NCBI RefSeq assembly: GCF_000023125.1
Contig: NC_013037.1
Location: forward strand, 2,480,001 to 2,544,000
DNA length: 64,000 nt
Reading direction: 5' to 3'
Source of the DNA: Dyadobacter fermentans DSM 18053
Lineage (GTDB): Bacteria; Bacteroidota; Bacteroidia; Cytophagales; Spirosomataceae
Shown here: positions 14,757 through 37,812 of the stretch, piece by piece
How positions within the stretch are numbered: position 1 is the first letter of the stretch
Layout of the letters: each line of letters opens with the position of its first letter
The notes under the pieces: generated by a model
Database searches by the model: none
What the model was told of the DNA's origin: nothing
The model's input: only the letters and a program-made list of their open reading frames with translations
Position numbers and translations under genes: made by a program

Positions 14757-14850
14757 GATTTATCAATAGAATTAGGTTGGGGCACCTTGACGAGTCACAG
14801 GTTGCCAGAAGATCACAGAGCCTAACCTCTCCCTTCGTTCTTAATAAATC
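14757..14850 (-). promoter_or_regulatory. SAM-I-clan riboswitch-like aptamer
   Basis: Read on the minus strand, a 10-bp P1 closes the structure: GATTTATTAA (14850-14841) with TTGATAAATC (14766-14757). P2 (14836-14808) is GAAGG-GA-GAG / CTC-TGT-GA-TCTTC, a textbook kink-turn. Its loop GTTAGG can pair with CCTAA after P3 as a pseudoknot. The two invariant strands of the SAM-I core are present: GGCAACC (14806-14800) and AAGGTGC (14788-14782). The P4 helix of classical SAM-I is missing, recalling the SAM-I/IV variants. It lies about 110 nt upstream of the cysteine desulfurase ATG. I see no clear terminator, so a translational switch is possible. Confidence 0.75.
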
Positions 14851-19486: not shown

Positions 19487-20911
19487 TTACTTACCTTCCG
19501 GATGTTGTGCTTCGGGATAACCCTTTTTCAACAACAGGGCCAATTCGTTTACCGTAATCACAAAACTGTTGTCTTTGGCGAGGTTGGTGAATTCGCCAGG
19601 ATCTTTTTGGTGATCATACAGTTCAACACCCGCATTGCCACCGTCCCATTCGGTGTAGCGGAAACGCTCAGTGCGCACACTGCGGCCGAAAATCTGCCCT
19701 CTCCGCACCTGGGTGTAAGCTGGCTTGTCCCAAATCGCAGCGGGATTTTTCAATAACGGCGTAAGACTTTTGCCTTGCAGGTTTTGTTTCGGATCAAGCC
19801 CGCACAACTCCGCCAAAGTTGGAAAAATATCAACCAACTCCACCGTGCGGCCGGATGCCTTTCCTTTCGTGCCGCCAGGAACAGAGATGATCAACGGCAC
19901 GCGCGCCGAGTTTTCAAAAAGGCTTTGCTTCATCCATTGACCGTGCTGCCCCACATTGTAGCCATGGTCACTCCAAAGGACAATAATGGTGTTTTCGGCC
20001 AGTTTCAGTTTATCCAGCGCGTCGATCAGCTTACCTACCTGCGCATCCATGAATGTGATCGTAGCATAATAGGCCCGCAGAGCTTCACGGCGTTTGGCCT
20101 CATCGAGTCCCCAATGCGGTGGCTTGGTGAATAATGCCGCCTCCGGGACATCGTCGAGGTCGTTTGGTATTTCTTTTGGTAACGGCACTTTATCCACCGG
20201 GTACATATCGAAATACTTTTGCGGCGCAACATAAGGTGTATGCGGCCTGAAAAAACCGACTGCCAGAAAAAATGGCTCATTTTTCTTTTCGGTCATGATT
20301 TTAATGGCCTCGCTGGCGATCAACCCGTCGGTTTGCTCGTCGTCGGTGCCCTCGGTGGCACGCCACGCCAACGCGCTTCCAAGCCCACGATCGGGCGTGA
20401 GGTTCTTGATTAACGGTTCCTCCGTTTTGTCACGGCCTTTCGGATTCACCCTGTAACTCCACGACTCGGGATCATCCAGCCCATCGGTTCCGATCTGGCT
20501 GGGAACGCCGTAATGGAATATCTTCCCTACCCGCGCGCTGTAATAATTGTTGTTCTTGAAGAGCTGCGGCAATGTAACAATGTCGGGCAGGTTTTTACGG
20601 AAATGCGTTTGCAGCTCGTAGATTTTGGTCATATCCGGCCGCTGGCCGGTCAGCAGCGATGAGCGGCTGGGACTGCATAACGGAAATTGCGTATACGCCT
20701 TATCGAAACGGACACCGCGCTTGGCGAGCCTGTCGATGTTTGGCGATTTCACGAAGGTGTTACCATATGTTCCCAGGTCGTTGTTGAGGTCGTCGACTGC
20801 GATGAACAAGACATTGAACTTCTTCTTTTGTGCCAATGCAGGAAACGTCCCGATCCACACGGCGAGCAGGATGGTGCCGAGAAAGGCGTAGTGTTTTGTC
20901 AGTTTTATCAT
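19487..20911 (-). CDS. Secreted sulfatase, iduronate-2-sulfatase-like
   Basis: 474 aa with signal peptide (ending GTFPALAQ). The alkaline-phosphatase-fold metal site starts at FIAVDDLNNDLGTYG. The formylglycine motif C-S-P-S-R (Cys79) is in FPLCSPSRSSLLTG, and the second metal cluster is in LWSDHGYNVGQHGQW. It needs oxidative maturation of Cys79, and no maturase is in the window. Overall features (FRPHTPYVAPQKYF, VELVDIFPTLAELCGL) match iduronate-2-sulfatase-like enzymes. It lies 17 bp after the other sulfatase. It is the last gene of the substrate-binding protein/sulfatase operon, and probably frees sulfate from polysaccharides or other esters. Confidence 0.9.
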   Translation of the reverse strand: MIKLTKHYAFLGTILLAVWIGTFPALAQKKKFNVLFIAVDDLNNDLGTYGNTFVKSPNIDRLAKRGVRFDKAYTQFPLCSPSRSSLLTGQRPDMTKIYELQTHFRKNLPDIVTLPQLFKNNNYYSARVGKIFHYGVPSQIGTDGLDDPESWSYRVNPKGRDKTEEPLIKNLTPDRGLGSALAWRATEGTDDEQTDGLIASEAIKIMTEKKNEPFFLAVGFFRPHTPYVAPQKYFDMYPVDKVPLPKEIPNDLDDVPEAALFTKPPHWGLDEAKRREALRAYYATITFMDAQVGKLIDALDKLKLAENTIIVLWSDHGYNVGQHGQWMKQSLFENSARVPLIISVPGGTKGKASGRTVELVDIFPTLAELCGLDPKQNLQGKSLTPLLKNPAAIWDKPAYTQVRRGQIFGRSVRTERFRYTEWDGGNAGVELYDHQKDPGEFTNLAKDNSFVITVNELALLLKKGYPEAQHPEGK

Positions 20912-20928: not shown

Positions 20929-22560
20929 CTATTTCCCATTGCCTGCCGCTCCCGGCTCCTGCTTGGCTTTGTTGTAATCATAAAACCATTTGAAAGTCTT
21001 GTCATACTCCTCAGCACCAACCCGCTTGTACCATGCTTCGTACTTCGCTACCAGCTTCTTCGCAACATCGGGTTGTTTGTCAAACTGGTCGTTCAGTTCT
21101 GTGCGATCCTGCTCCACATCGTACAACTGCCATTTCTCCGTTTTTTCCGCCACAAGTTTCCATTTGCCATCGCGGATCGCGCGGTTACCTTCGTGTTCCC
21201 AGAAAATCGGGTTCTTGCGGTTGATAGGCTTTCCGGTGAAAGCGGGTTTCAGGCTCGCACCTTCCATCGGCTGAATCGGCTGCCCGGCATAAGTGGTGGG
21301 ATAGCCCGCATTTCCAAGATCCACGAGCGTTGCCATAATATCAATGATATGAGCCGGTTGGCGCTCAAACTTGCCATTTCGAGAAGTAGGAATGCCCGCA
21401 GGCCACGACACGATGCCCGGCGACGAAATCCCGCCTTCGTGCGTGTGGTGTTTGTATGCCCAAAACGGCGTACATGCAGCCTCCGCCCAGCCCTGGCCCA
21501 GAAATACGGTCGATTTGGCATTCCCCGGCTTGTCGCCTTGGTAACGCCCCTCGATGCCTGGCTCCGCATTGCCGCCGTTGTCGGATACGAACAGAATGAC
21601 GGTATTATCAAACACACCTCGCTTTTTCAAGCCATCCACCAGGTCACCAATGCTTTTGTCGAGACGCGAGATCACGGCAGCATAAATGGCCATGATGTCG
21701 TCATATCGCTTCTTTTCATCGTCGCTAAGGCTATCCCAACGCTTCACATTGGGGTTGATCGGCGGCAACTTCCAGGACGGGTCGATCAGTCCCAGTTTAA
21801 TTTGCTTTTCATATCGCTCCTGACGGAGTTTTTCCCAGCCTTTCAGGTATTTGCCACGAAACTTTACAATGTCCTCTTCGGGTGCCTGCAACGGAAAATG
21901 AGGTGCATTGTGGGCCAGATAGAGCATAAACGGCTTCTTTTCAGCCAGCGCCTCGTCGATAAAACGCAAGCCGTAGTTCGTCCAAAGATCGGTCGAATAC
22001 CAGTCTTTGGGTAATGCGGTCGAGTCGTTCGTAACTTCTTGTCCGTTGAGGAAAAGCTTCGCATTGTTACCCCCGGCATAGTAAAAACCTCCCGCAGGCG
22101 CGTGCAGCGACCGATCGAAGCCTCGGTTGGAGGGGTACACGCCGTGCTGGTGACCGACGTGCCATTTGCCGCTCATCGCCGTGAAATAGCCCGCGCCTTT
22201 CATCACTTCGGCGATCGTCACGCTGTTATGATTGAGCTGCCCCCGGTATGCGGGATGGTCAGCGCCCTTGTCGTCCATCATGTGGCCGATCCCCGCCTGG
22301 TGGCTGTAAACGCCGGTGAGCAGGGCCGCCCGCGTGGGGCAGCAGCGGGCGGTGTTGTAAAAATTGGTAAACCGAACGCCGCTCTGTGCCAGCTTGTCGA
22401 GGTTTGGGGTCGGGATTTCACCTCCGTAACAGCCCAGGTCTGCATAGCCGAGGTCATCGGCCAATATCACGATCACGTTCGGCTTTTTTTGGGAAAATGC
22501 TGCCGGCGCCAGGCAAGCGAACGCCATTAGCAACACACTGGTCATGTATTGTTTTAGCAT
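20929..22560 (-). CDS. Secreted arylsulfatase
   Basis: 543 aa from the ATG at 22560, chosen because it gives a proper signal peptide (SVLLMAFACLAPAAFSQ). A longer start at 22623 would bury it. Motifs: ILADDLGYADLGCYGG, the formylglycine motif C-C-P-T-R with Cys73 in NTARCCPTRAALLTG, and VSDNGGNAEPGIEGRYQG. It belongs to the large arylsulfatase A-like group. It is 86 bp downstream of the binding protein and 17 bp upstream of the second sulfatase, so all three are likely one transcript under sulfur control. Confidence 0.9.
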   Translation of the reverse strand: MLKQYMTSVLLMAFACLAPAAFSQKKPNVIVILADDLGYADLGCYGGEIPTPNLDKLAQSGVRFTNFYNTARCCPTRAALLTGVYSHQAGIGHMMDDKGADHPAYRGQLNHNSVTIAEVMKGAGYFTAMSGKWHVGHQHGVYPSNRGFDRSLHAPAGGFYYAGGNNAKLFLNGQEVTNDSTALPKDWYSTDLWTNYGLRFIDEALAEKKPFMLYLAHNAPHFPLQAPEEDIVKFRGKYLKGWEKLRQERYEKQIKLGLIDPSWKLPPINPNVKRWDSLSDDEKKRYDDIMAIYAAVISRLDKSIGDLVDGLKKRGVFDNTVILFVSDNGGNAEPGIEGRYQGDKPGNAKSTVFLGQGWAEAACTPFWAYKHHTHEGGISSPGIVSWPAGIPTSRNGKFERQPAHIIDIMATLVDLGNAGYPTTYAGQPIQPMEGASLKPAFTGKPINRKNPIFWEHEGNRAIRDGKWKLVAEKTEKWQLYDVEQDRTELNDQFDKQPDVAKKLVAKYEAWYKRVGAEEYDKTFKWFYDYNKAKQEPGAAGNGK

Positions 22561-22646: not shown

Positions 22647-23579
22647 TTACTTTACAGCCTGAAATCTTTCCAGTTTCTCCTTTTCGTCGGCCAGTCTTTT
22701 GGCGTCGGCTTTCAGGTAGCCGAACTGGTGAAGGTCTTTATCGGCGTTGGCCGCCACCCAAAGCAGGAACTTTTTAGCCTCCGGATTTGAATTATTCTTG
22801 GCAATTGAAAAATGAATGTTCTCAACCGGCACATTTTTGACTTTCTCCGCTTCCAGCGTCGCGATCACCTGGTCGAGGTTTTCCAGGGCCTTCTCTTCTT
22901 TGGAAACGCGCCCATTACCATCCAGGTCCACGGGAATGATCGTGAGGCCTTCCAGCGGCTTGCGGCTTTGGAGGTCGTAGGCGAGGCCGGGCGTGGTGTA
23001 GGTGATTCCGGTTTCGTCTTTCAAAAGTGCCTTGATCAAATGCTCGTCGGCACCAGCGATGGATTTGCCCTTGATATTCTGCTGCTCGTAACCGAAATAC
23101 CTGGCGAAAGTGAGCGGCGCGCCGGCCTTTTGCAGGCGTGTGTAAATCGTGTATTCGGTAGTCAGCGACTTGTCTTTCTGCGCGTAAATATCATGGAAGA
23201 AAATCTGTTTGTAGGTCTTTTCATTCAGACCTTTGTCGGCATATTCTTTCGCAAAAGCCGATTTTGCATTCGCTACCGGCAGCAGCGCATACTTTCCGAT
23301 CGAAATGTACTCGCGCGTGTCCTTCACCTCCTTGTCCTGGTAATAGGCTTCGATAAGCAGGTCATATTTGGCCGGATCGGTGATCGTACGTGTCTCGATC
23401 ACGATCTGCGCCTTTGGATTGGCAGCGGTGTATTCTTTGATCCATTTCTCGACCAGTGGATAAGCAAAACGCACACCGGTAACGACCACCTTGTTCTCGC
23501 CGGACTCCTGCGCCGATGCATTGGAAAATGCGGCAAGCGCAAGGCCAGCTGCCATGAAGATAGACTTAAAGTTTTTCAT
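22647..23579 (-). CDS. Periplasmic substrate-binding protein with an EF-hand-like loop, probable sulfate/oxyanion binding
   Basis: 310 aa from the ATG at 23579, which precedes a signal peptide (SIFMAAGLALAAFSNASAQ). The mature part resembles PstS/sulfate-type solute-binding proteins: VVVTGVRFAYPLVEKWIKEY at the start, FARYFGYEQ, and KKFLLWVAANADKDLHQFGY at the end. A canonical EF-hand loop DLDGNGRVSKEE lies at about residue 222. No permease or ATPase gene is adjacent. Context with two sulfatases favours sulfate over phosphate, which is inference. It follows a polycysteine leader ORF and a sulfur box. Confidence 0.75.
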   Translation of the reverse strand: MKNFKSIFMAAGLALAAFSNASAQESGENKVVVTGVRFAYPLVEKWIKEYTAANPKAQIVIETRTITDPAKYDLLIEAYYQDKEVKDTREYISIGKYALLPVANAKSAFAKEYADKGLNEKTYKQIFFHDIYAQKDKSLTTEYTIYTRLQKAGAPLTFARYFGYEQQNIKGKSIAGADEHLIKALLKDETGITYTTPGLAYDLQSRKPLEGLTIIPVDLDGNGRVSKEEKALENLDQVIATLEAEKVKNVPVENIHFSIAKNNSNPEAKKFLLWVAANADKDLHQFGYLKADAKRLADEKEKLERFQAVK

Positions 23580-23684
23580 AATGAAAATGTTTGGAACTGC
23601 GGACGGCTCCGGCCACAGCATATTGATAAAATGTAATAGGGTGAAAATCAGTATGAGGCAATTGTGATTACCTTCGAAGACCTA

Positions 23685-23783
23685 TCAACAACAGCAACAG
23701 GGCGCGACTGCAAAAGGATAATGGGAAGGGCCCACCATAGGCATAACATTGATGCGCGAAGCATAACGATCCATCGATTTCAT
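23685..23783 (-). CDS. Polycysteine leader peptide upstream of the sulfatase operon
   Basis: A 32-codon ORF starting MKSMDRYASRINV and ending AVAPCCCC then TGA. It lies 106 bp upstream of the binding-protein ATG and 53 bp downstream of the sulfur box. Four consecutive Cys codons (TGT TGC TGT TGT) just before a stop, in front of a sulfur-scavenging operon, are what a cysteine-responsive attenuator needs. Such polycysteine leaders are known as attenuators in mycobacteria. An internal start at codon 4 is possible. A hairpin at 23597-23618 lies just before the downstream gene. The attenuating RNA structures themselves are not evident by eye. Confidence 0.6.
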   Translation of the reverse strand: MKSMDRYASRINVMPMVGPSHYPFAVAPCCCC

Positions 23784-23835
23784 ATTCGAAAAGATTGTGA
23801 AATTGATCCGTTTGCTGGTGGCTAACAAACAAAAT

Positions 23836-23850
23836 CTACTTATTTGATAG
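23836..23850. promoter_or_regulatory. Candidate sulfur box, sulfatase operon
   Basis: CTACTTATTTGATAG followed by ACAAAG, the same 21-bp layout as at 14850 (GATAGACAAAG is identical). It is placed 53 bp upstream of the polycysteine leader ORF. Confidence 0.5.
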
Positions 23851-23912
23851 ACAAAGTAAATTTAAAGAAATCGAATTCGCAAGCACTACGCTCAATTTCG
23901 TTGAAATCGAGG

Positions 23913-27062: not shown

Positions 27063-27416
27063 TCACAATCCGACGTAAACGCGGTTTTCTTTCACCATCA
27101 CCGGGAAAGTGTTGATCCGGTATTCGTCGTCGTTGAGGCACTGTCCGGTTTGCAATGAAAACGTTTTTTTATGAAAAGGACAAGCCACTTTGGGTTCTTC
27201 GCCCTGGCTGCCGATCATCCCGCGCGACAGTGCCATTTGCTGGCGGTGCGGGCATTGGTTATCGGTAGCATACCATTCTCCCCTTCTCGAAAAATTGTAA
27301 ATGGCGATTTGCTTGCCGCTGATAAACGCACAGCCGCCGCCGTCCTCAGGGATATCGTCGACGTAGCATGCCATGTGCCAGGTTACTGCATTGATTGTGT
27401 CAGTGATCGTTTCCAT
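27063..27416 (-). CDS. nirD: Assimilatory nitrite reductase small subunit
   Basis: 117 aa Rieske-fold NirD. Unlike many NirD proteins it keeps full iron-sulfur ligands: CPHRQQMALSRG and CPFHKKTFSL (C-x-H and C-x2-H). It starts 43 bp after nirB and ends 36 bp before the sensor kinase, so nirB-nirD-kinase-regulator looks like one operon. It partners NirB in NAD(P)H-dependent reduction of nitrite to ammonium in the cytoplasm. Confidence 0.92.
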   Translation of the reverse strand: METITDTINAVTWHMACYVDDIPEDGGGCAFISGKQIAIYNFSRRGEWYATDNQCPHRQQMALSRGMIGSQGEEPKVACPFHKKTFSLQTGQCLNDDEYRINTFPVMVKENRVYVGL

Positions 27417-27459
27417 ATCAATTTTGAATGATTGAATGATTGAATGAGTGAATGGTTTG

Positions 27460-29976
27460 TTATGCCCATTCGGTGGCCCGCTTTTGCTCGCGCATGTCCG
27501 CGAACGTAATGCTGGGGTCTTTCATAGGCGTGTTCACAAAGTGCGTGAAGCGTTTGCGGAGCTCGGGGCTTTCCACCACCTCGCGCCATTCGCATTTATA
27601 GACGTCGATCAGGTTTTGCATATCGCGTTCGAGTTCTCCTGCGATGCCCAGCACGTCGTCCACGACCACCGCTTTGAGGTAATTCATGCCTCCTTCCATT
27701 TTGTTGAGCCATGTAGCGGTCCGGGTAAGCGGGTCGGCGGTTTTGATATAAAACATCAAAAAGCGGTCGATGAGGCGGAGACAGGTTTCTTTATCCACGT
27801 CCGTTGCGAGCAGTTGGGCGTGCTGCGGTTTGGAGCCTCCATTGCCGCACACAAACAGGTTCCAGCCTTTTTCGGTAGCGATAATGCCAAAATCCTTGCT
27901 TTGCGCCTCGGCACATTCACGCACGCAGCCCGAAACCGCAGATTTCAGTTTATGCGGTGAGCGCAGGCCTTTGTAACGGTCCTCCACTTCAATCGCAAAC
28001 GACACCGAATCCTGCACGCCGAAACGGCACCAGGTGGAGCCAACGCAGCTTTTTACGGTTCTTAAAGATTTACCATAAGCATGGCCGCTTTCGAAACCGG
28101 CGTCGATCAACTCTTCCCAAATGTCCGGCAAGTCGCCCAGGTGCGCGCCGAAAAGGTCGATACGCTGGCCGCCGGTGATTTTGGTGTACAAATTATATTT
28201 CTGCGCCACCTGACCGATCACGATCAGTTTCTCAGGCGTAATTTCACCGCCAGGAATCCGCGGCACAACGGAATATGTGCCGCCTTTCTGAATATTTGCC
28301 AGGTAGCGGTCGTTCGAATCCTGCGCCACGGCGCGGTCTTTTGCCAGGATATTTTCATTCCAGAGGCTGGCCAGCAACGAGACCACCAGCGGCTTGCACA
28401 CTTCGCAGCCATCGCCTTTGCCGTGATGGTCGAGCACGGCGCCGTAGGTTTTCAGGCCATTCATTTTTACCAAATCGAGCAGCTCCTGGCGCGAATAGTC
28501 GAAATGCTCGCAAATGACATTCCGTACGTATACGCCCTTTTCCTTCATCACCCCCGAAATCAGGTCTTTCACCATCGGGATACAGCCGCCGCAGCCGGTA
28601 CCGGCCTTGCAGCATTTTTTCAATGCATCCACGGTATGATGTCCGTTTTCACCTACCTCGTGGCAGATCATGCCTTTGGTAACGGCCTCGCACGAGCATA
28701 TGAGCGCGTCGTCGGGGAGGCTCATTACGCCTGCGCCCGCTTCCTCGCCCCCGCGGGAGCCCAGGATCAGGTCTTCGGAATCGGGCGGGAGAATGGTTTT
28801 GTTCTTGCAGGTTTGCAGGAGCATGTTGTACTGCTCGGCCTCGCCTACGAGGATACCGCCTAGCAAAGTTTTGCCGTCGGAGCTTACATTAATGCGCTTG
28901 TAAATGCCCTTAGCCTTATTTTCATAACGGATCGTGCGGCAAGCCGGCTCTTCTACAAACGGGTCTCCGAAGCTCGCCACGTCGGTGCCGATGAGTTTCA
29001 GCTTGGTCGACATGTCGTAGGGAAGAAATTCCTTTTCTCCGCCGGTCAGCATGGTCGCCACCACGTCGGCCATTTCATAGCCCGGCGCGATGAGGCCGTA
29101 GATCATATGGTGCGCCAATGCACATTCCCCGATCGCGAAAATGAATGGATCGGAGGTTTGGAGCTGGTTGTTGACGATGATGCCGCCGCGTGGGTGCGTT
29201 TCGAGGCCTGCGATTTTGGCCACTTCGTCGCGCGGGCGGATACCCGCGGAAATCACGAGCATATCCACGTCCAGGAAGCTATTGTCGGCAAACTGCATGC
29301 CTTCAATGCGGTCGTCGCCTTTGATTTCCTGCGTGCTTTTGGATAAATGTATTTGTAAACCAAGAGATTCCAATTGGCTTTGCAGCATGCGCGAACCGGC
29401 ATCGTCAATCTGCCTCGGCATCAGTCGCGGAGCAAATTCCACCACATGCGCTTCTTCCAAACCGAGGTCCAGCAATGCTTTGGCCGCTTCCAGGCCCAGC
29501 AAACCGCCGCCGAGCACGGCACCCTTTCTCGCCTTTTTGGCATAAGACTGGATCAGTTCCAGATCTTCGATGGTACGATACACAAACACCCCATCCTTCT
29601 CGACGCCCGGAATAGACGGAACGAATGCCCCAGAGCCGGCTGCCATGATGAGGTAGTCATAATATACTATATGTCCATGGTGTGAACGCACCAGTTTCTC
29701 CTCCCGGTCGATGTCCACCACGGGATCGGACAAAAACAGCCGTATCCCGTTTTCTGCATACCAGTCTACTCCGGCCATGGAAAGGTCATCTGCCGACTTC
29801 CCTGCAAAAAACTCGCTCAAATGTACTCTGTCGTAGGCAGCACGGGGCTCTTCGCCGAATACCGTGATGGAAAATTCCTGTCCTTCTTTTTTTCGCGAGA
29901 GGAGCTTTTCACAGAATTTGTAGCCCACCATACCATTACCAACTACGACGATCCGGGTGTTTGAAACAGCTTTCAT
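27460..29976 (-). CDS. nirB: Assimilatory nitrite reductase large subunit
   Basis: 838 aa. Domains in order: FAD/NAD(P)H oxidoreductase (VVGNGMVGYKFCEKLL; AVLGGGLLGLEAAKALL), a BFD-like [2Fe-2S] domain (ICSCEAVTKGMI...CKAGTGCGGCIPMV), then a ferredoxin-like and siroheme/[4Fe-4S] module. The siroheme ligands are in CVGSTWCRFG and SGCVRECAEAQ. The length matches NirB. It transfers electrons from NAD(P)H to siroheme and reduces nitrite by six electrons to ammonium. It is divergent from cobA, which makes the siroheme precursor. The shared 275-bp AT-rich region probably carries both promoters. Confidence 0.95.
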   Translation of the reverse strand: MKAVSNTRIVVVGNGMVGYKFCEKLLSRKKEGQEFSITVFGEEPRAAYDRVHLSEFFAGKSADDLSMAGVDWYAENGIRLFLSDPVVDIDREEKLVRSHHGHIVYYDYLIMAAGSGAFVPSIPGVEKDGVFVYRTIEDLELIQSYAKKARKGAVLGGGLLGLEAAKALLDLGLEEAHVVEFAPRLMPRQIDDAGSRMLQSQLESLGLQIHLSKSTQEIKGDDRIEGMQFADNSFLDVDMLVISAGIRPRDEVAKIAGLETHPRGGIIVNNQLQTSDPFIFAIGECALAHHMIYGLIAPGYEMADVVATMLTGGEKEFLPYDMSTKLKLIGTDVASFGDPFVEEPACRTIRYENKAKGIYKRINVSSDGKTLLGGILVGEAEQYNMLLQTCKNKTILPPDSEDLILGSRGGEEAGAGVMSLPDDALICSCEAVTKGMICHEVGENGHHTVDALKKCCKAGTGCGGCIPMVKDLISGVMKEKGVYVRNVICEHFDYSRQELLDLVKMNGLKTYGAVLDHHGKGDGCEVCKPLVVSLLASLWNENILAKDRAVAQDSNDRYLANIQKGGTYSVVPRIPGGEITPEKLIVIGQVAQKYNLYTKITGGQRIDLFGAHLGDLPDIWEELIDAGFESGHAYGKSLRTVKSCVGSTWCRFGVQDSVSFAIEVEDRYKGLRSPHKLKSAVSGCVRECAEAQSKDFGIIATEKGWNLFVCGNGGSKPQHAQLLATDVDKETCLRLIDRFLMFYIKTADPLTRTATWLNKMEGGMNYLKAVVVDDVLGIAGELERDMQNLIDVYKCEWREVVESPELRKRFTHFVNTPMKDPSITFADMREQKRATEWA

Positions 29977-30204
29977 AGTAAATAATAACTATTGATTTGT
30001 GAAAACGTGATTATTTTATTGTATTATTTCAATATTATGTGCGTGTTATCACTTTTTCGATAAGTCAAATATAAATCGTGTTTTTTGTAATTCCTAACTT
30101 TTAATTCGCATTTATAGCCAAAAACAAACATAATTTTTGGTAAAATGATTGTTTTATAAAATTTGGCTAGTAAATTTGAGCCTATAATAACCATAGTTAC
30201 AAAA

Positions 30205-30218
30205 TACTATATATAGTA
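30205..30218. promoter_or_regulatory. 14-bp perfect palindrome in the nirB/cobA divergent promoter
   Basis: TACTATATATAGTA, 34 bp upstream of the cobA start in a very AT-rich 275-bp region. It is a candidate operator for a nitrogen regulator. It does not match NarL heptamers. Confidence 0.4.
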
Positions 30219-30251
30219 CATTTCTAATATTCACCCTATTATATATAAGAG

Positions 30252-31010
30252 ATGGAAGCGAAACTGACACTGGTAGGAGCCGGCCCCGGCGACAGCGAAC
30301 TGATCACACTGAAAGGCATACGTGCATTGCAAACTGCGGATGTGGTCCTGTACGACGAACTCGCCAACGCGGCTTTCCTGGAATTTGCCCCAGCCCACGC
30401 ACTCAAAATGTATGTCGGCAAAAAAGTGCGTAAGCCTTCCTTCTCGCAGGATGAGATCAACGGCCTCATCGTGCGTCTCGCCCGCAAGCGTGGCCATGTG
30501 GTACGGCTCAAAGGCGGCGATCCGTTTGTATTCGGTCGCGGTCATGAGGAAATGGAATACGCGCAGGACCACGGCATTCCGTGCTCCATCGTGCAGGGCA
30601 TTACCAGCAGCACGGCCGTTCCTGCCTCAATGGGCATTCCGGTAACGCGCCGCGGGGTAAGCGAGAGCTTCTGGGTGATCACCGGAACGACACAAAACGG
30701 CGAGCTTTCAGACGATCTCCGACTGGCAGCCCAGTCGAAAGCAACGGTAATCGTTTTAATGGGTTTGAATAAACTGGAAGAGATTTGTGCGCTATACAAA
30801 CACTTCGGACGCGGCCATTTGCCGATGGCGGTGATCCAGAACGGCACCCGGTCGGACGAGAAAAGTGTGGTGGGACAGGTTTGGGAAATGCCGCGGCTTG
30901 TACGCGAAAGCGGCATTGGCACACCGGCGATTATGGTGATGGGCGAAGTAGTGGCCCTCAGCCCCGCTTACGCATTGGAATACCTGCAAAACATGCAGAT
31001 GGCATTTTGA
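30252..31010 (+). CDS. cobA: Uroporphyrinogen-III C-methyltransferase
   Basis: 252 aa SUMT. Conserved features: LVGAGPGDSELITLKGIRAL, VVLYDELAN, RLKGGDPFVFGRGHEEMEYA and GITSSTAVPASMGIPVTRRG. It methylates uroporphyrinogen III twice to precorrin-2, feeding siroheme for NirB (and any sulfite reductase). No CysG dehydrogenase/ferrochelatase part is fused. First gene of the plus-strand nitrate operon, 37 bp before the porin. Confidence 0.95.
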   Translation: MEAKLTLVGAGPGDSELITLKGIRALQTADVVLYDELANAAFLEFAPAHALKMYVGKKVRKPSFSQDEINGLIVRLARKRGHVVRLKGGDPFVFGRGHEEMEYAQDHGIPCSIVQGITSSTAVPASMGIPVTRRGVSESFWVITGTTQNGELSDDLRLAAQSKATVIVLMGLNKLEEICALYKHFGRGHLPMAVIQNGTRSDEKSVVGQVWEMPRLVRESGIGTPAIMVMGEVVALSPAYALEYLQNMQMAF

Positions 31011-31047
31011 TCCCGCTTGCTTTCACTCCAACCTAAACATAATCACA

Positions 31048-32400
31048 ATGAAAAGAGCTCTCCTTTTGCTGGGTATGATCGGGACCGGCCTGCTGGCACC
31101 GATGCGAACAATGGCGCAGTTCAGCCTTTCGGGTCAGTTACGGACCCGGACGGAGTTGCTTGACGGACAGGGCACGATGCTTTCCAAGGGGGAAAAGCCG
31201 GCCTTTTTCACTTCCCAGCGTACCCGTCTGAATGCAGGCTACAAGGGTTACCGGACGCAGTTTTTCGTGGCTGTGCAGGATGTGCGCGTGTGGGGGCAGG
31301 ACGCTTCTACCAACAACCGCATCACCAACTCGGCCCTCAATGGGCTCATGCTGCACGAAGCCTGGGGGGAAATCAGCCTGCTGGATACCAACCAGACCAA
31401 GCTCGGAAAAGAGTTCGCATTGAAGATCGGGCGGCAGGAATTTGTTTACGACGACAGCCGCGTGCTCGGCAATCTCGACTGGCTGCAACAGGCCCGGCGG
31501 CATGATGCGGCTTTGATCAAGTACGGTTTTAATGGTTTTACTGCGCATCTGGGCGTTGCGTATAACCAAAACCGTGAGTTCAAAACCGGCACTTTGTACG
31601 ACGGTGTGCCCATAGGTTATCCGGCCGGCACGAACGGGATCGGGACGATGTACAAGTCATTGCAGTTTTTGTATTTGGGTAAAAAATTAAAGAGTGGAAA
31701 TGCTTCGTTCTTGGCTGTAAAGGATGATTTTCAAAAATATACATTGGATACGGCGGGTGTAAAAAAGCTGGCTGACGGTGTGCGGAGCCGGGTGACGTTT
31801 GGGCCCTATCTGCAAACTAAAATCGGCAAAAACTGGACATTGACCGCCAATGCGTTTTACCAGGCAGGGAAAGACAAAGACGGTGCGTCGCTGAGCGCCT
31901 ATATGTATTCTGTCCGGGGGATGTATGCGATGAACCGGGTATTTTCCATTGGTCCCGGCTTCGACTACACCTCCGGCACAGTGTCCGGCTCCTCGAAAAA
32001 CCACACGTTCGACCCGCTTTACGGCACGCCGCACAAGTTTTGGGGACAAATGGATTACTTCTATGCGGCTAATGCGTTCGGCAAGGGCGGACTTTCGGAC
32101 CTTTACATTAATACCACGATCAAAGCCTCCGAAAAGCTTTCCTTCAACACCGATCTGCACCATTTTTCCAGCGCAGCCACCGTGCGCGTTGCTGATAATC
32201 AGAAGCTCTCATCCGGCTTCGGCGAAGAACTCGACATTATCGCGAATTACAACCTGACGAAAAGCATCAGCTTCCAGGGCGGCTACTGCGCCTTTTTCTC
32301 GACCAACAGTCTGGCACAGGTGAAGGGCGTGAAAAATCCGCAGAAAATGTCCAACTGGGCCTACCTGATGATCAATATCAAACCTGAATTCCTGAAATAA
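31048..32400 (+). CDS. Alginate-export-family outer membrane porin
   Basis: 450 aa with signal peptide (LLGMIGTGLLAPMRTMAQ). It is a beta-barrel of many amphipathic strands and has the family pattern SGQLRTRTELLDG, RTRLNAGYKGYRTQFFVAVQ, IGRQEFVYDDSRVLGNLDW and HDAALIKYGF. Although named for alginate export, its place between cobA and the nitrate transporter suggests an outer-membrane channel for nitrate or nitrite (inference). It lies 36 bp before narK. Confidence 0.82.
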   Translation: MKRALLLLGMIGTGLLAPMRTMAQFSLSGQLRTRTELLDGQGTMLSKGEKPAFFTSQRTRLNAGYKGYRTQFFVAVQDVRVWGQDASTNNRITNSALNGLMLHEAWGEISLLDTNQTKLGKEFALKIGRQEFVYDDSRVLGNLDWLQQARRHDAALIKYGFNGFTAHLGVAYNQNREFKTGTLYDGVPIGYPAGTNGIGTMYKSLQFLYLGKKLKSGNASFLAVKDDFQKYTLDTAGVKKLADGVRSRVTFGPYLQTKIGKNWTLTANAFYQAGKDKDGASLSAYMYSVRGMYAMNRVFSIGPGFDYTSGTVSGSSKNHTFDPLYGTPHKFWGQMDYFYAANAFGKGGLSDLYINTTIKASEKLSFNTDLHHFSSAATVRVADNQKLSSGFGEELDIIANYNLTKSISFQGGYCAFFSTNSLAQVKGVKNPQKMSNWAYLMINIKPEFLK

Positions 32401-32436
32401 GTCTGTCACAACCATCACTTTCAAACTCTTATTACT

Positions 32437-33747
32437 ATGGAAACGACCAATAAGCCGCTTGAAAAACTCAACATATTCAGCTTCAAGGGCGTGCAAATGC
32501 GCACTTTCCACCTGACCTGGATGGCGTTCTTCCTCTGTTTCTTCGGATGGTTCGGACTGGCCCCGCTCATGACGGTCATTAAAGCGGATCTAGGCCTCAC
32601 CAAGCCGCAAATCGGTAACATTATCATCGCCTCCGTAGCCGCCACGGTCATCGCCCGCATCGCCATCGGCAAGCTGTGCGACTCCTGGGGCCCGCGTAAA
32701 ACTTACACTGCATTGCTCGGTTTCGGCGCCATTCCGGTGATGACAGTCGGCCTGGTGGACTCCTATGAAGGCTTTTTGCTCTTCCGCCTTGCCATCGGCG
32801 TGATCGGCGCTTCATTTGTGGTGACGCAATACCATACTTCGGTCATGTTCGATAAGAAAATTGTCGGAACGGCCAATGCGGTGGCTGGCGGCTGGGGTAA
32901 CCTCGGCGGCGGGATCACGAACATGGTCATGCCATTGGTTTTCGCAGCATTCGTGGGCGCAGGTTACCTGCCCGAATCGGCCTGGCGGATCGCGATGGTC
33001 ATTCCGGGTGTAGCGTTGCTGATCTTTGCATTTGTATATTATTTCTTCACCAAAGACACCCCGGCTGGCAACTTCGAAGACCTGGCGATCACTAACCCGA
33101 AAGCTGCCAAAACAAAAGGCACATTAGGCATCGCCATGCGCGATCCGCGCACCTGGGCCTTATTCCTCGCCTATGGAGCATGTTTTGGGATTGAAATCAC
33201 TTTTGATAATGTGGCTGCATTGTACTTTTTCGACAACTTTAACACCTCGTTGGAAACGGCGGGTATCCTGGCTGGTGCATTCGGATTTATGAACATTTTC
33301 GCACGGGCCATCGGCGGAATCGTGGCGGATAAGGTTGGTAACAAATGGGGAATGCTGGGCAAAGGACGCCTGCTCGCCCTCCTGCTCGTGCTCGAAGGGA
33401 TCGGCATCGCATTGTTCGCGCAGAGCGGCAGCATTGTTGGCGCGGTGATTACCATGCTTTGCTTCGCAATGTTCTTGAAAATGGCCAACGGCGCTACTTA
33501 TGCGATTGTGCCTTTTATTAATCAAAAAGCGATCGGCTCGGTGAGCGGCATCGTAGGCGCAGGCGGTAATGTGGGCGCGGTGCTGGCAGGATTCCTGTTC
33601 AAATCCAGCGCAATTTCCTACTCGGAAGCATTTATGTACATTGGGGTAGCCATCGCCTGCATCGCCGCAATCGTCGCATTGATCAACTTTGAAAAGGAAC
33701 AGACGGTGACAGCGGAAACAGGCCAATTGGAGCCGGTAGAAGCATAA
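32437..33747 (+). CDS. narK: Nitrate/nitrite MFS transporter
   Basis: 436 aa with about 12 transmembrane helices. The NNP-family nitrate signatures are present twice: AVAGGWGNLGGGITNMVMP in the first half and VGAGGNVGAVLAGFLF in the second. The MFS loop motif GKLCDSWGPRKTY also fits. It imports nitrate for the downstream reductase. A 522-bp repeat-rich gap separates it from the nitrate reductase gene on the same strand. Confidence 0.93.
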   Translation: METTNKPLEKLNIFSFKGVQMRTFHLTWMAFFLCFFGWFGLAPLMTVIKADLGLTKPQIGNIIIASVAATVIARIAIGKLCDSWGPRKTYTALLGFGAIPVMTVGLVDSYEGFLLFRLAIGVIGASFVVTQYHTSVMFDKKIVGTANAVAGGWGNLGGGITNMVMPLVFAAFVGAGYLPESAWRIAMVIPGVALLIFAFVYYFFTKDTPAGNFEDLAITNPKAAKTKGTLGIAMRDPRTWALFLAYGACFGIEITFDNVAALYFFDNFNTSLETAGILAGAFGFMNIFARAIGGIVADKVGNKWGMLGKGRLLALLLVLEGIGIALFAQSGSIVGAVITMLCFAMFLKMANGATYAIVPFINQKAIGSVSGIVGAGGNVGAVLAGFLFKSSAISYSEAFMYIGVAIACIAAIVALINFEKEQTVTAETGQLEPVEA

Positions 33748-33920
33748 TGCCGCCCGCAGGCTAATTGAACGGGAATGAATGAAAAAGTATCGAGAGAGAT
33801 CGTCCCGACGTCAGTTGATTCAAATCATCAGAAACGGAGAAAAATCCGATCCCGATAGAGCCACCAAGGCCCGCAGATTGAAATCAATGGAAATGGATTC
33901 AGGATCATTCGCAAAAGAAT

Positions 33921-34220
33921 GCCACAGCGTGGCAGCCCGTTTATAGCAACGAGAAATACCAAAGCGTCGCCAGACTCCGGAGGAGTCGCCTGACGAAAGG
34001 CTATTAAACCGCCAGGGTGGCCCCGCCCAGGTGGCCCCGCCCAGGTGGCCCCGCCTAGGTGGCCCCGCCTAGGTGGCCCCGCCTAGGTGGCCCCGCCGGG
34101 GCCGAAACGATTGCGAAGAAATGGATTTTGCTATAAACAGGATGGCCCTCCGGGCCAAAAACGATTGCCAAAAAATGATTTGCTATAAACAGGATGCCCC
34201 TCCGGGCCGCCGCCCCATTC
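33921..34220. repeat. Dispersed palindromic repeats between narK and nitrate reductase
   Basis: Part of the 522-bp gap 33748-34269, which shows no gene. It holds a hairpin GCCACAGCGTGGC with GTTTATAGCA (33921-33949) and GACTCCGGAGGAGTC (33973-33987). Further palindromes are GGCCCCGCCGGGGCC (34089-34103) and two copies of TGCTATAAACAGGATG plus GGCCCTCCGGGCC-type palindromes (about 34129-34216). The same modules recur at 37824-38055 after the next gene. They look like REP/BIME-type intergenic elements that would form RNA hairpins in the operon transcript. Confidence 0.75.
34017..34099. repeat. 14-bp tandem repeat, about six copies
   Basis: Units GTGGCCCCGCCCAG (two copies), GTGGCCCCGCCTAG (three copies) and a final partial copy that runs into a GGCCCCGCCGGGGCC palindrome. 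It is a perfect-length minisatellite, likely to vary by slippage. Confidence 0.9.
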
Positions 34221-34269
34221 ACTCATTCAACATTCACTCATCGCACCGGCGACCCGGTCACTCATTAAA

Positions 34270-37200
34270 ATGAAGCCATCCCCAACATCCTATAAATCGA
34301 CCTGCTGTTACTGCGGCGTGGGCTGCGGGGTCGTGGTGACGAAAGAAAGTAACGGCCAGCTCAGCCTGGAAGGCGATAAGGAGCATCCGTCGAACAAAGG
34401 AATGCTGTGTTCCAAAGGCATGAACCTGCATTACACGGTGATGGACCAGTCGGACCGGCTGCTGTATCCGCAGGTGCGGCTCAACCGCTCGATGCCTTTG
34501 CAGCGCGCGACCTGGGACGAGGCGCTGGAACGCACAGCGGCTGTTTTTAAGACATTAATCAAAAAATTCGGGCCCGATTCGGTGGCATTTTATGTCTCCG
34601 GGCAATGCCTCACCGAGGAGTATTACCTGGTCAACAAGCTGATCAAGGGCTTCATCGGGTCCAACAATATCGACACCAACTCCCGCCTGTGTATGAGCTC
34701 GGCGGTGGTGGGTTACAAGCTGTCACTGGGCGAGGATAGCGTTCCCGTTTGCTACGACGACATCGAAGCGGCCGATGTCATGTATGTAACCGGCGCTAAC
34801 CCGGCCTGGTGCCATCCCATTATCTGGCGGCGCGTGGAAGCGCATAAAACGGCGAATCCGGCTACCAAAATTATCTGCGTGGACCCGCGTGTAACCGACA
34901 CCGCCCGCTCGGCCGACCTGCATTTGCAGATCCGCCCGGGCACCGACATTGTCCTCAACAACGCGATCGGTCGTTTGCTGATCGAAAATGATTACCTCGA
35001 TGAGCGGTTTATTGCAGACCACACCGATGGTTTCGAATTATTCCGGCTACAAGTAATGCAGCGCACTTTGGCGGAAGCGGCCGACATTTGTGGTGTCCCT
35101 TCCGCCGACATTGCCTTAGCCGCCGAATGGATCGGCCGTTCGAAAGGCTTTCTCTCCTTTTGGACCATGGGATTGAACCAATCGGTAATCGGGGTAAACA
35201 AAAACCTTTCGCTCATCAACCTGCATTTGATTACCGGTAAAATCGGCAAACCGGGTAATGGGCCGTTCTCGTTGACCGGCCAGCCGAATGCCATGGGCGG
35301 TCGGGAAACGGGTGGCCTTGCCAACATTCTCCCGGGCCACCGCGAGGTGGTGAATGCCGCCCACCGCGAGGAAATGGAACAATTCTGGAACACGCCCGTC
35401 CGCATTGCCGACAAGCCCGGCCTTACCGCTACCGAAATGTTCGAAGCATTGGCCGATGACAAACTGAAAGCGATCTGGATCATCAACACCAACCCGCTGG
35501 TGAGCATGCCCGACATGAATGCCGTGGAAAGCGCATTGAAAAAATCGCGTTTTGTGGTGGTGCAGGACGTTTCTAACCGCGCCGACACCGTGCATTTCGC
35601 CGACGTGGTACTGCCCGCGGCGGCCTGGCTGGAAAAAGACGGCAGCATGACCAACGCCGAACGCCGCATTACCTATCTTCCCAAAGTGCTCGACGCGCCG
35701 GGAGAAGCCCTGCCCGATTCGGAAATCCTCTGGCGTTTTGCCCAGAAAATGGGCTTTGAAAAAGCATTTAATTACAAAACCAATGCCGATGTGTATGCTG
35801 AATATGTGAAGGTTACCAAAGGAACGACCATTGACGTAACCGGCGTAAGCCATCAATTACTGAAAGAAAAACGCAGCGTCCAATGGCCGCTTTCGTCGCT
35901 GGATGCCGAGCGTTCCGCAGAAGTGCGCCAGCCTGGCACCAAACGCCTTTTTACCGACCATCAGTTTTATACCAAAAATAAAAGAGCGCAAATCCATGCC
36001 GTACCGGATGAAAACACATCCGAACCGACGGATAACCAGTTCCCATTGGTTTTAACGAGTGGAAGAATCCGCGACCAGTGGCATACCATGACCAAAACGG
36101 GCCGTGTCGCGAAATTGAACAAGCATATTCCCCAGCCTTTCCTGCAAATTCACCCCGTCGACGCGCAGGAACGCGGCATTCAGGAAGGCAGTCTGGTGAC
36201 GGTGAGCAGCCGTCGCGGGGAAGTGCGTGTGAAGGCGCAGATTACCACGGATGTCCGCAAAGGGCTGTGCTTTTTGCCCATGCATTGGGGAAAAATATTG
36301 GGTAGCAACCTCGTGCGCGCCAACAACCTCACTAGCCCGCTGGTTGACCCGAAATCCAAAGAACCGGATTTCAAGTTTTCGGCTGTGCAGGTAGCATTGT
36401 ATCAAAAACCAGTTGAAAAAATCATCATTATCGGCGCAGGATCGGCTGGTTTGGGCTTTATCAATGCCTACCGCCAGCTCAATGCGAACGATGAGATCCA
36501 TGTTTTTTCCAAAGAAATATATCCGTTTTATAACCGGGTAATGCTGCCCGATTACATCAGCGGCTCGCAAACCTGGGAACAGCTCGTGAAGCTGCGCGAG
36601 GACCAGTTTGCCGAAAACCGCATTACCGTGCATAAGGGCGTAAGTATCATGCACATCGACCGGAAACACAAAACCGTGATCGATAGCAACGGATTTGAAC
36701 ACCATTACGACAAGCTGATCCTCGGCATGGGCAGCAAGGCGTTCATGCCGAAAGGCGTGCCCAACCTGCCCGGCATTTTCAATATGCGCTCGCGGCTCGA
36801 TGCGGACTCGTTGCTGCCGTTTTTGAAACAGCCCGACCCGCACGCGGTGATCGTCGGCGGGGGAATTCTGGGGCTGGAATTAGCGGCATCATTCCGCGAA
36901 ATGGACGTAAAAGTGACCGTGATCCAGCGCAGCGGCCGTTTTATGGAGCGCCAGCTTGACCCGCTCGCGAGCGAACTGCTTTACCAGGAGCTGCTCGACC
37001 GGGGAATCGAATGTTATTTCAATGATGAGGTGGCTACCTTCTCGGGTTCGGACACCGTGGAAGGGATCAGGCTGAAATCGGGACGGAAGATTGATTGTCA
37101 GGTGGTTGTACTGGCTATCGGCACCGTCCCGACCATCGACCTCGCCAGAAACACCGGCCTTGAATGCAAGCGCGGCGTGGTAGTGAACGATTACATGCAA

Positions 37201-37812
37201 ACTTCCGACCCGGATGTTTACTCGGCCGGTGAAATCGCCGAATGGAACGGACAAATGTGGGGCATTACCCTCGCCGCCGAACAGCAAGCCGAAGTGATCG
37301 CCAACTACCTCGCGGGCGACATTTCGCAACCGTACAAAGGAAGCACCTCGATGAACATCCTGAAAATGGACGGTCTGCACTTGTGCAGCATCGGCATGAC
37401 CGACGCCCCGGCCAACGATCCGGCCTATGAGCAAATCGTATTCATCGATAAATCAAAGCGTTATTACAAAAAATGCATCGTGCACCGCGACAAGCTCGTA
37501 GGTGCGATCCTGATAGGCGATAAAAACGAATTCCTGGAATTCCGCGACCTCATCTCGGGCGGCGTCGAACTTTCGGAAAAACGCCTGCAACTCCTCCGCG
37601 CGAGCCAGAAAGCCGAGCCGATGATGGGAAAACTCGTATGCTCCTGCAACAATGTCGGACAAGGAAACCTGGAAAATGCCATTGCCGGCGGCTGCGGCGA
37701 TTTCCAGAAGCTCTGCCAGACGACGGGCGCCGGGACGGGCTGCGGCTCATGCCGGCCGGAGGTGCGGTCTATTTTGGAAAAGGCGTTGGAAAATAGTTTG
37801 GTAGCATTGTAG
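34270..37812 (+). CDS. Assimilatory nitrate reductase fused to FAD oxidoreductase and BFD-like domain
   Basis: 1180 aa. Residues 1 to about 710: molybdopterin oxidoreductase with N-terminal [4Fe-4S] ligands CCYCGVGCG...MLCSKG and Mo-bisMGD motifs (GQPNAMGGRETGGLANILPG). Residues about 715-1110: NirB-like FAD/NAD(P)H module (IIIIGAGSAGLGFINAYRQL; VIVGGGILGLELAASF). Residues about 1115-1180: BFD-like [2Fe-2S] domain (CSCNNVGQGN...TGAGTGCGSCRP). So catalytic and electron-input parts, separate proteins in Bacillus or Klebsiella nas systems, are on one chain. It reduces nitrate to nitrite in the cytoplasm. No signal peptide. Repeat-rich gaps lie on both sides. Confidence 0.93.
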   Translation: MKPSPTSYKSTCCYCGVGCGVVVTKESNGQLSLEGDKEHPSNKGMLCSKGMNLHYTVMDQSDRLLYPQVRLNRSMPLQRATWDEALERTAAVFKTLIKKFGPDSVAFYVSGQCLTEEYYLVNKLIKGFIGSNNIDTNSRLCMSSAVVGYKLSLGEDSVPVCYDDIEAADVMYVTGANPAWCHPIIWRRVEAHKTANPATKIICVDPRVTDTARSADLHLQIRPGTDIVLNNAIGRLLIENDYLDERFIADHTDGFELFRLQVMQRTLAEAADICGVPSADIALAAEWIGRSKGFLSFWTMGLNQSVIGVNKNLSLINLHLITGKIGKPGNGPFSLTGQPNAMGGRETGGLANILPGHREVVNAAHREEMEQFWNTPVRIADKPGLTATEMFEALADDKLKAIWIINTNPLVSMPDMNAVESALKKSRFVVVQDVSNRADTVHFADVVLPAAAWLEKDGSMTNAERRITYLPKVLDAPGEALPDSEILWRFAQKMGFEKAFNYKTNADVYAEYVKVTKGTTIDVTGVSHQLLKEKRSVQWPLSSLDAERSAEVRQPGTKRLFTDHQFYTKNKRAQIHAVPDENTSEPTDNQFPLVLTSGRIRDQWHTMTKTGRVAKLNKHIPQPFLQIHPVDAQERGIQEGSLVTVSSRRGEVRVKAQITTDVRKGLCFLPMHWGKILGSNLVRANNLTSPLVDPKSKEPDFKFSAVQVALYQKPVEKIIIIGAGSAGLGFINAYRQLNANDEIHVFSKEIYPFYNRVMLPDYISGSQTWEQLVKLREDQFAENRITVHKGVSIMHIDRKHKTVIDSNGFEHHYDKLILGMGSKAFMPKGVPNLPGIFNMRSRLDADSLLPFLKQPDPHAVIVGGGILGLELAASFREMDVKVTVIQRSGRFMERQLDPLASELLYQELLDRGIECYFNDEVATFSGSDTVEGIRLKSGRKIDCQVVVLAIGTVPTIDLARNTGLECKRGVVVNDYMQTSDPDVYSAGEIAEWNGQMWGITLAAEQQAEVIANYLAGDISQPYKGSTSMNILKMDGLHLCSIGMTDAPANDPAYEQIVFIDKSKRYYKKCIVHRDKLVGAILIGDKNEFLEFRDLISGGVELSEKRLQLLRASQKAEPMMGKLVCSCNNVGQGNLENAIAGGCGDFQKLCQTTGAGTGCGSCRPEVRSILEKALENSLVAL

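Follow-up and report, generated by a model that had tools for sequence, protein, structure and literature searches.

A conserved family of predicted cysteine-run leader peptides in front of sulfatase, TonB-receptor and fatty-acid-hydroxylase genes of Dyadobacter

The window analysed here, a stretch of 64,000 nucleotides, comes from the genome of Dyadobacter fermentans DSM 18053, a single contig of 6,967,790 bases. On its minus strand lies an operon that begins with a gene for a periplasmic-binding-like protein (positions 22647 to 23579) and continues with the genes for two sulfatases, at positions 20929 to 22560 (Pfam ID PF00884, E = 1.8e-57; start picked by eye) and 19487 to 20911 (PF00884, E = 2.2e-47). 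The binding-like protein shows a weak match to the PBP_like_2 family (PF12849), at 21.8 bits under a cut-off of 27, matches no NCBIfam family and has a single, chance-like match among PDB sequences. Where an earlier sequence-only reading had seen a binding protein followed by two sulfatases, the sulfatases are borne out and the binding protein retains only the weak PBP_like_2 match. The same reading had called this a sulfate-uptake operon, which is not supported: the binding-like protein has no firm family, and the seven window proteins scanned include neither the membrane part nor the ATPase part of an ABC transporter. An MFS transporter is encoded some 9 kb away and belongs to another gene group. 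Positions 27063 to 37812 of the window hold genes for a nitrite/sulfite reductase-like protein, an MFS transporter and a molybdopterin oxidoreductase and resemble a nitrate assimilation cluster.

Upstream of the operon is a leader open reading frame (ORF) of 32 codons, MKSMDRYASRINVMPMVGPSHYPFAVAPCCCC, at positions 23685 to 23783 of the minus strand, with its ATG at 23783 and a TGA stop codon at 23687-23685. Four Cys codons, TGT TGC TGT TGT (23688 to 23699, minus strand), adjoin the stop codon, which confirms the 32-residue ORF with four terminal Cys codons of the earlier reading and places it on the minus strand. A TTG farther upstream, in frame with this ORF, offers an alternative version of 47 codons. 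The spacer between the leader stop and the probable ATG of the binding-like protein gene (23579) occupies positions 23580 to 23684 of the same strand and contains a GC hairpin (23618-23597) with no U-tract behind it; it measures 105 nt, close to the 106 bp given previously.

Four Cys codons followed by a stop codon are not, by themselves, rare in this genome. The corresponding pattern, TGYTGYTGYTGYTRR, has 12 matches there, compared with 7 for the reversed control pattern. Six of the 12 have a real stop codon, of which four lie inside genes or are not part of an ORF of any length, so that only two of the six are plausible leaders. The excess over chance lies in the conservation of the Cys run and not in the four-Cys-stop string itself.

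This conservation was assessed in leaders of the same gene. Matches to the binding-like protein are found in 31 of 59 genomes, namely 29 of the same genus (including the query genome), G053 and G055; they are also found in 34 named loci, the closest 23 of which are from Dyadobacter (L044 to L066). The string CTTTGTCTATCA occurs in 34 of the 35 leaders of the binding-protein gene, with L040 having TCTATTA instead. Alignment A1, whose members were selected by this string, consists of 34 distinct same-genus leaders, 28 from the genome set and 6 from the named loci; a leader that occurred in both sets was used once, and L040 was left out.

The aligned leaders share a series of elements, all located on the minus strand in the query. 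The first is a promoter-like pair, TTG (23882-23880) and TTACTTTG (23859-23852), together spanning positions 23852 to 23882 with 20 nt between them; these are predicted elements of the Bacteroidota type, the consensus of which we take to be TTTG / TAnnTTTG. Behind TTACTTTG, the common sequence TCTATCA-N4-RTAG forms an operator-like palindrome, TCTATCAAATAAGTAGA in the query (23835 to 23851), which starts 68 nt before the leader ATG. It is followed by hairpin P1, GTTTG...CAAAC (23810 to 23830), with the loop sequence CCACC at 23821-23817. Around the second ATG of the ORF, a block with the proposed hairpin P2, CGATGnAT-nnnn-ATTCTTCG (23757 to 23776), is common to the leaders, and a possible hairpin P3, GCAT...ATGC, can be drawn at 23741 to 23755. 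Finally, the ORF contains GGTGG (23732 to 23736), complementary to the P1 loop, in all 34 leaders.

In 32 of the 34 leaders the ORF stays in frame and carries at least two consecutive in-frame Cys codons, with the ATG at leader codon 1 or 4. In these 32, GGTGG and the Cys run are 31, 34, 37 or 40 nt apart, all 1 modulo 3, so that lengths change in threes and the frame stays intact. L040, outside the alignment, also carries the residues CCC. One of the two exceptions, L037, has a one-base shift that disrupts the leader frame. In the other, L024, whose leader is the same as that of L055, the Cys run is lost and the leader start is in frame with the main gene, as would be expected if the leader start is used. 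In L055, from position 3947 onward, this appears as a natural fusion in which the leader ORF start continues in frame into the binding-protein gene, with no Cys run.

Outside the genus, the leaders of L067 and L068 (nearly identical) and L069 end in CCCCCRMC, CCCCRMC and CCCCSH, respectively, and in each a SAM riboswitch (Rfam ID RF00162) ends 7 to 10 nt before the ATG of the leader with its four or five Cys codons. Inspection by eye shows genes resembling SusC and SusD downstream of this gene in L068 and L069, and sulfatase-like genes downstream of it in Dyadobacter L046, L054 and L063. No Cys-Cys-tailed ORF is present in eight distant relatives (L070 to L077, from Prevotella, Prevotellaceae, Xylanibacter and Bacteroidaceae), and L043, from an order relative, has no Cys-run leader. 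The SAM-I riboswitch of L067 to L069 precedes an orthologous gene. Searches of Dyadobacter leaders did not find it: no SAM match at E <= 1 came from the query leader, L045, L054, L063 or eight further loci. The window itself contains a SAM riboswitch (RF00162, 48.6 bits) at positions 14757 to 14850 of the minus strand, before a cysteine desulfurase-like gene (by eye), with the palindrome TCTATCGAATTTATAGA (about 14863-14847) at its start.

Further leaders were found with RNA models. Model R1 was built from the 34 aligned leaders and model R2 from 16 leaders, including L082, L083 and L114; both models end 4 nt past GGTGG, before the Cys run. In the query genome, R2 at E <= 1 finds five places, of which the query leader, L109 (= L082) and L110 (= L083) have a Cys run and the remaining two have no visible one. 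The L082 element of this genome precedes genes for SusC, for a protein that by eye is probably SusD, and for two sulfatases. In 38 genomes, drawn from the genus (25) and the order (13), R2 yields many places within the genus and no convincing place in an order relative. Leaving aside the binding-protein leaders and the query genome, this search and one of 39 genomes of the order together give 78 places at E <= 0.1, 74 of them in the genus. The palindrome, as TYTAY-N6/7-NRTAG, is present in 68 of the 78, a count that is not independent because the palindrome is part of the search model.

A Cys-Cys tail, defined as an ORF of 12 to 60 codons whose final eight residues include CC, occurs in 37 of these 78 leaders. 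The reverse strand has 1 such tail, each of 14 control windows has 0 to 2, and 60 dinucleotide shuffles give 1.4 +/- 1.2. Eight of the 37 resemble orthologs of the training leaders L082 and L083 by peptide similarity, L161 resembles the binding-protein leaders, and L214, in which no CCACC hairpin was found, looks like chance. By the same rule 41 matches have no such tail; by eye, L162, L169, L187 and L189 do have one, and L191 has a single Cys. GGTGG lies within the ORF in 25 of 36 leaders and ends 26 to 35 nt before the first Cys-Cys in 19 of these 25, with 41 to 68 nt in the others. Examples are MNAYSERVTIANRMVVSTISFFPGTCCCC (L194, before a sulfatase gene), MKTNHLLLLQTNSATRVDSAISSMNAMCCCYMHCY (L163, TonB receptor) and MAFRWYFSYGFSSYAGSNQPCCCC (L216, fatty-acid hydroxylase), with genes assigned by eye. 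Some tails are interrupted (CCSCC, CCCYMHCY, CCCQPCCGQPCC), which favors Cys residues over a UG-rich RNA motif. Four-Cys-plus-stop strings do arise by chance inside genes of this genome, and the Cys run might likewise be an accident of a UG-rich stretch, an explanation with next to no probability left: it is refuted by the frame kept throughout the same-gene leaders and by the excess of tails over the 1.4 expected.

The proteins encoded downstream of 36 of the 37 Cys-tailed leaders comprise 16 with an FA_hydroxylase domain, 11 with a TonB plug and 9 sulfatases. Among 41 comparison proteins (from 40 tail-less places and L209; L238 gave no protein) there are 10 sulfatases, 10 TonB plug proteins, 6 rhodaneses, 5 FA_hydroxylases, 3 sigma-70 proteins, 1 TauE and others. 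The sulfatases are clearly sulfur genes, and the TonB receptors and FA_hydroxylases are linked to sulfur by context only. The observation of the sequence-only reading is confirmed and extends to a conserved Dyadobacter family of predicted leader peptides with a Cys run, which stand in front of genes for sulfatases, TonB receptors and fatty-acid hydroxylases. Conservation of the ORF and its Cys run in relatives, which the sequence-only reading had named as the check to make, is seen in frame across the genus and in Ohtaekwangia-like genomes, and the Cys run recurs in leaders before these other genes.

The peptides before different genes differ and have little in common beyond the Cys tail and the residues forced by GGTGG. 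This speaks against a Cys-tailed peptide acting in trans, for instance as a thiol or metal binder, as do the position of the ORF directly upstream of the gene and the small gain that a sulfur-short cell would draw from a cysteine-rich product. In its favor, disulfide formation or metal binding is conceivable for a run of up to five cysteines, and the peptide would be co-expressed with sulfur-related genes; even so, we consider a role in trans very unlikely.

The models were also run on wider sets of genomes. R1 at E <= 0.05 matches one other genome, G356, among 395 genomes of the phylum, and R2 at E <= 0.02 matches only the query genome and G757 (chance by inspection) among 395 genomes of the class; the stricter filters used in both searches lose weak matches. 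G356 belongs to a different family of the class and has a leader with the ending CCC before a TonB receptor gene, in a cluster with a molybdopterin oxidoreductase gene. R2 finds six other genomes at E values of 0.058 to 0.93 among 39 genomes of the order, and the places inspected in G043, G049 and G453 have no Cys-run leader by the tail rule. Among 39 genomes of the family of G356, the search yields G356 and six weak matches; one of the six, L241 in G147, is a Cys-run leader with no CCACC hairpin. In L241, at about 1490 to 1760, the palindrome occurs three times (TCTATAAAAATAGTAGA, TCTATAAATTTGGTAGA and TCTACTAAAAAAGTAGA) around the leader MNWLLLQNHYHSLYGRCCCCNSTC, with a TonB-receptor-like gene downstream.

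A second conserved block, with the core TTTTCGGTGGTTG and another GGTGGTT within it, is found in L083/L119, L079, L162, L178, L187, L191 and L206, upstream of a fatty-acid hydroxylase, sulfatase or TonB-receptor gene. Long arms that are complementary to each other often flank it (CCGGAAATATCCC ... GGGATATTTCCGG is one example), and in L119, L162, L178 and L196 it has no Rfam match at E <= 1. Sigma-70-type genes stand behind the palindrome and CCACC, with no Cys run, in L201, L217 and L228 and at C1:1970780-1970903 of the query genome (L111). Their assignment is based on regions 2 and 4 in 3 of the 41 comparison proteins and, for L111, on inspection by eye; they may add a level of regulation to the same response.

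Part of the conservation of these leaders is at the RNA level, and the peptide frame overlaps conserved RNA sequence. The Ser codons TCTTCG are nearly invariant across leaders, indicating an RNA-level constraint on top of coding. Hairpin P1 covaries in the 34 aligned leaders, with both-side changes in all 5 pairs and 86.5% of the cells paired, and P3 has both-side changes in 3 of 4 pairs and 64.7% of the cells paired. P2, an RNAalifold proposal, is almost invariant and so has no covariation support, with one pair broken in the query. In A1, 88.6% of the cells of the hand-drawn structure pair, compared with 83.8% in shuffled and 37 to 51% in slid versions.

The long-range pairing was followed through the 57 of the 78 loci that have both the palindrome and CCACC. 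GGTGG follows 35 to 135 nt on in 37 of the 57, compared with 4.0 +/- 1.9 in shuffles, a difference that is partly selection, as both motifs are in the search model. In these 37 leaders, the flanks of CCACC and GGTGG form 117 pairs with their own partners and 96.1 +/- 5.3 with shuffled ones, a value that 0 of 1000 shuffles reach, although the loci are related and the last figure is not a probability. The query leader has no Rfam match at E <= 1. Other loci have only matches below the gathering threshold, to mir-4524 (best E = 0.0047, in an upstream inverted repeat), ceN80, Thr_leader and L20_leader, all taken as chance. The CCACC/GGUGG module thus has no credible Rfam match; the earlier reading did not mention any conserved RNA module around the ORF.

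A tentative alternative, clearly the less probable one in our view, is that the CCACC hairpin and its GGUGG partner are the actual sensor, a riboswitch or protein-binding RNA, and that the ORF with its Cys run is secondary and modulating. The covariation of P1 and the support from the long-range flanks point this way, as do the SAM riboswitches before the same gene in L067 to L069. So does the presence of hairpin and partner, with no Cys run, before the rhodanese genes and some sulfatase genes, such as those of L180 and L205. However, the Cys-Cys tails of the 37 other leaders would be left unexplained. The CCACC and GGUGG cores are invariant throughout the 34 aligned leaders, which leaves the core pairs with no covariation support, and the flank test comes from related leaders. 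Unguided RNAalifold on A1 gives a covariation term of only -0.4, with both-side changes in 1 of 17 pairs, and chooses neither P1 nor P3. The query leader folds no better than its shuffles (z = -0.93, 43 of 200 as good).

A broader reading, which we regard as evenly balanced between right and wrong, is that Dyadobacter possesses a dedicated non-Rfam, operator-coupled RNA element for sulfur-related genes, in which the CCACC hairpin would pair with a distant GGUGG and which would exist in versions with and without a peptide. In the peptide version, the pairing would enclose the start of the Cys-run leader, so that a single leader would act as RNA switch and tRNA-Cys sensor at once; the peptide-less version would place the pairing at the main gene's own start. 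In the Ohtaekwangia-like relatives, a SAM riboswitch would take the place of the module, so that one leader may read both SAM and cysteine. In L180 and L205, which have no Cys-run ORF, 2 nt separate the end of GTGGTTAAC, a sequence complementary to the P1 loop GTTAACCAC, from the sulfatase ATG downstream. L190 and L194 precede sulfatases with N termini similar to those of L180 and L205 but have the Cys-run version of the leader.

Our preferred reading, to which we assign a probability of roughly 70%, is that the ORF is a cysteine-sensing leader peptide and that the downstream genes would rise when charged tRNA-Cys is scarce. A sensor role of the Cys run is likely; translation of the leader, stalling and the direction of the response are what we infer. 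The operon would be transcribed from a promoter whose start region bears the palindrome common to other sulfur-related genes, and its transcript would first encode a short peptide with consecutive Cys codons adjoining the stop codon. With charged tRNA-Cys plentiful, the peptide would be finished, ribosomes would leave, and the binding-protein and sulfatase genes would stay low. With cysteine scarce, ribosomes would stall on the Cys run and downstream expression would go up. Such a ribosome would leave GGUGG, mostly about ten codons earlier, just behind it and free for P1.

Ways in which a stall might be passed on were examined in the spacers. A hairpin with a U-tract is seen in 11 of 58 spacers, compared with 5, 9 and 8 in three shuffles, and in 1 of 22 binding-protein leaders. 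The leader peptides carry a run of the regulatory amino acid and their spacers, mostly about 70 to 330 nt long, bear hairpins, as in classical trp-type attenuation; given the terminator counts, a terminator/antiterminator switch of that type is unlikely. The interpretation of the sequence-only reading is supported in part: the Cys run is upheld, and the sulfate-uptake operon and an attenuator of the terminator type are not. Members of Bacteroidota make little use of Shine-Dalgarno sequences. Combined with the lack of an intrinsic terminator, this favors two routes: the stall would most likely block Rho-dependent termination just behind the leader stop, at a tnaC-like stall position, or alter re-initiation at the main gene.

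C exceeds G in 53 of 58 spacers, which is compatible with Rho and not specific for it. The spacer C/G ratio is 1.54 in the 22 binding-protein leaders and 1.18 in 32 leaders with no Cys run. It is also 1.58 upstream of the ORF and merely 1.21 in 36 other Cys-run leaders, which makes the Rho idea weak. A translational attenuator in which leader codons hide the main start by pairing was rejected, as the mean duplex of the Cys codons with the main start is -8.76, compared with -8.84 for swapped partners. The idea that GGUGG has another partner close to the main start was also rejected: ACCAC occurs no more than 45 nt from the main ATG in 9 of 57 loci (2.1 expected), and such matches (ACCAC or CCACC) fall in TonB-receptor leaders and in 4 of the 22 binding-protein leaders and are therefore not independent.

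Several known systems resemble these leaders. In leader peptides of the trp and his type, too, a short ORF carries consecutive codons for the amino acid that exerts the control, whereas the Dyadobacter spacers have no excess of intrinsic terminators and the targets are scavenging and uptake genes. A tnaC-type leader with Rho-dependent termination shares the proposed stall position by the leader stop and a spacer with more C than G. However, tnaC senses free tryptophan and not tRNA charging, whereas the Dyadobacter leaders are proposed to sense tRNA charging, with a putative role of Rho.

The mycobacterial polycysteine leaderless short ORFs of Canestrari et al. (2020, Mol Microbiol 114:93-108), as described in PMC9031893, mentioned in PMC13236596 and cited in PMC10117436, are likewise short upstream ORFs with contiguous Cys codons and a proposed cysteine-dependent ribosome speed. 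The comparison, which the sequence-only reading had already drawn, rests on the Cys run and not on peptide similarity. It holds for what would be sensed and fails for the leaderless ORF: in 34 Dyadobacter leaders, P1 precedes the ATG (with a predicted 5' end), the ORF is embedded in a conserved RNA module, and in L067 to L069 a complete SAM aptamer lies ahead of the Cys-run ORF. With these differences, the Dyadobacter leaders may be regarded as a functional analogue of the mycobacterial system. A 5' UTR of M. tuberculosis combines a B12 riboswitch with a translated uORF (PMC11260477), similar to the riboswitch and leader ORF in one 5' UTR of L067 to L069; its ligand is B12 rather than SAM, and its abstract names no Cys run. 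Clues for leader-peptide attenuation before amino-acid operons are available for a flavobacterium (PMC9723704) and short ORFs in long 5' UTRs for B. thetaiotaomicron (PMC7366714), with no Cys-run leader in what these sources present. At the level of titles and abstract openings, the literature searched reports no Cys-run leader in Bacteroidota, subscription papers being mostly outside the search.

Repeated across the genus, this leader family would constitute a directly testable cysteine sensor, and it suggests that Cys-codon leaders occur outside actinobacteria, too. Bacteroidota have many sulfatases, and to our knowledge little has been described of how they control sulfur scavenging. The leaders of Dyadobacter and its relatives may also serve to study natural combinations of a riboswitch, a leader peptide and an operator-like site where Shine-Dalgarno sequences are little used.
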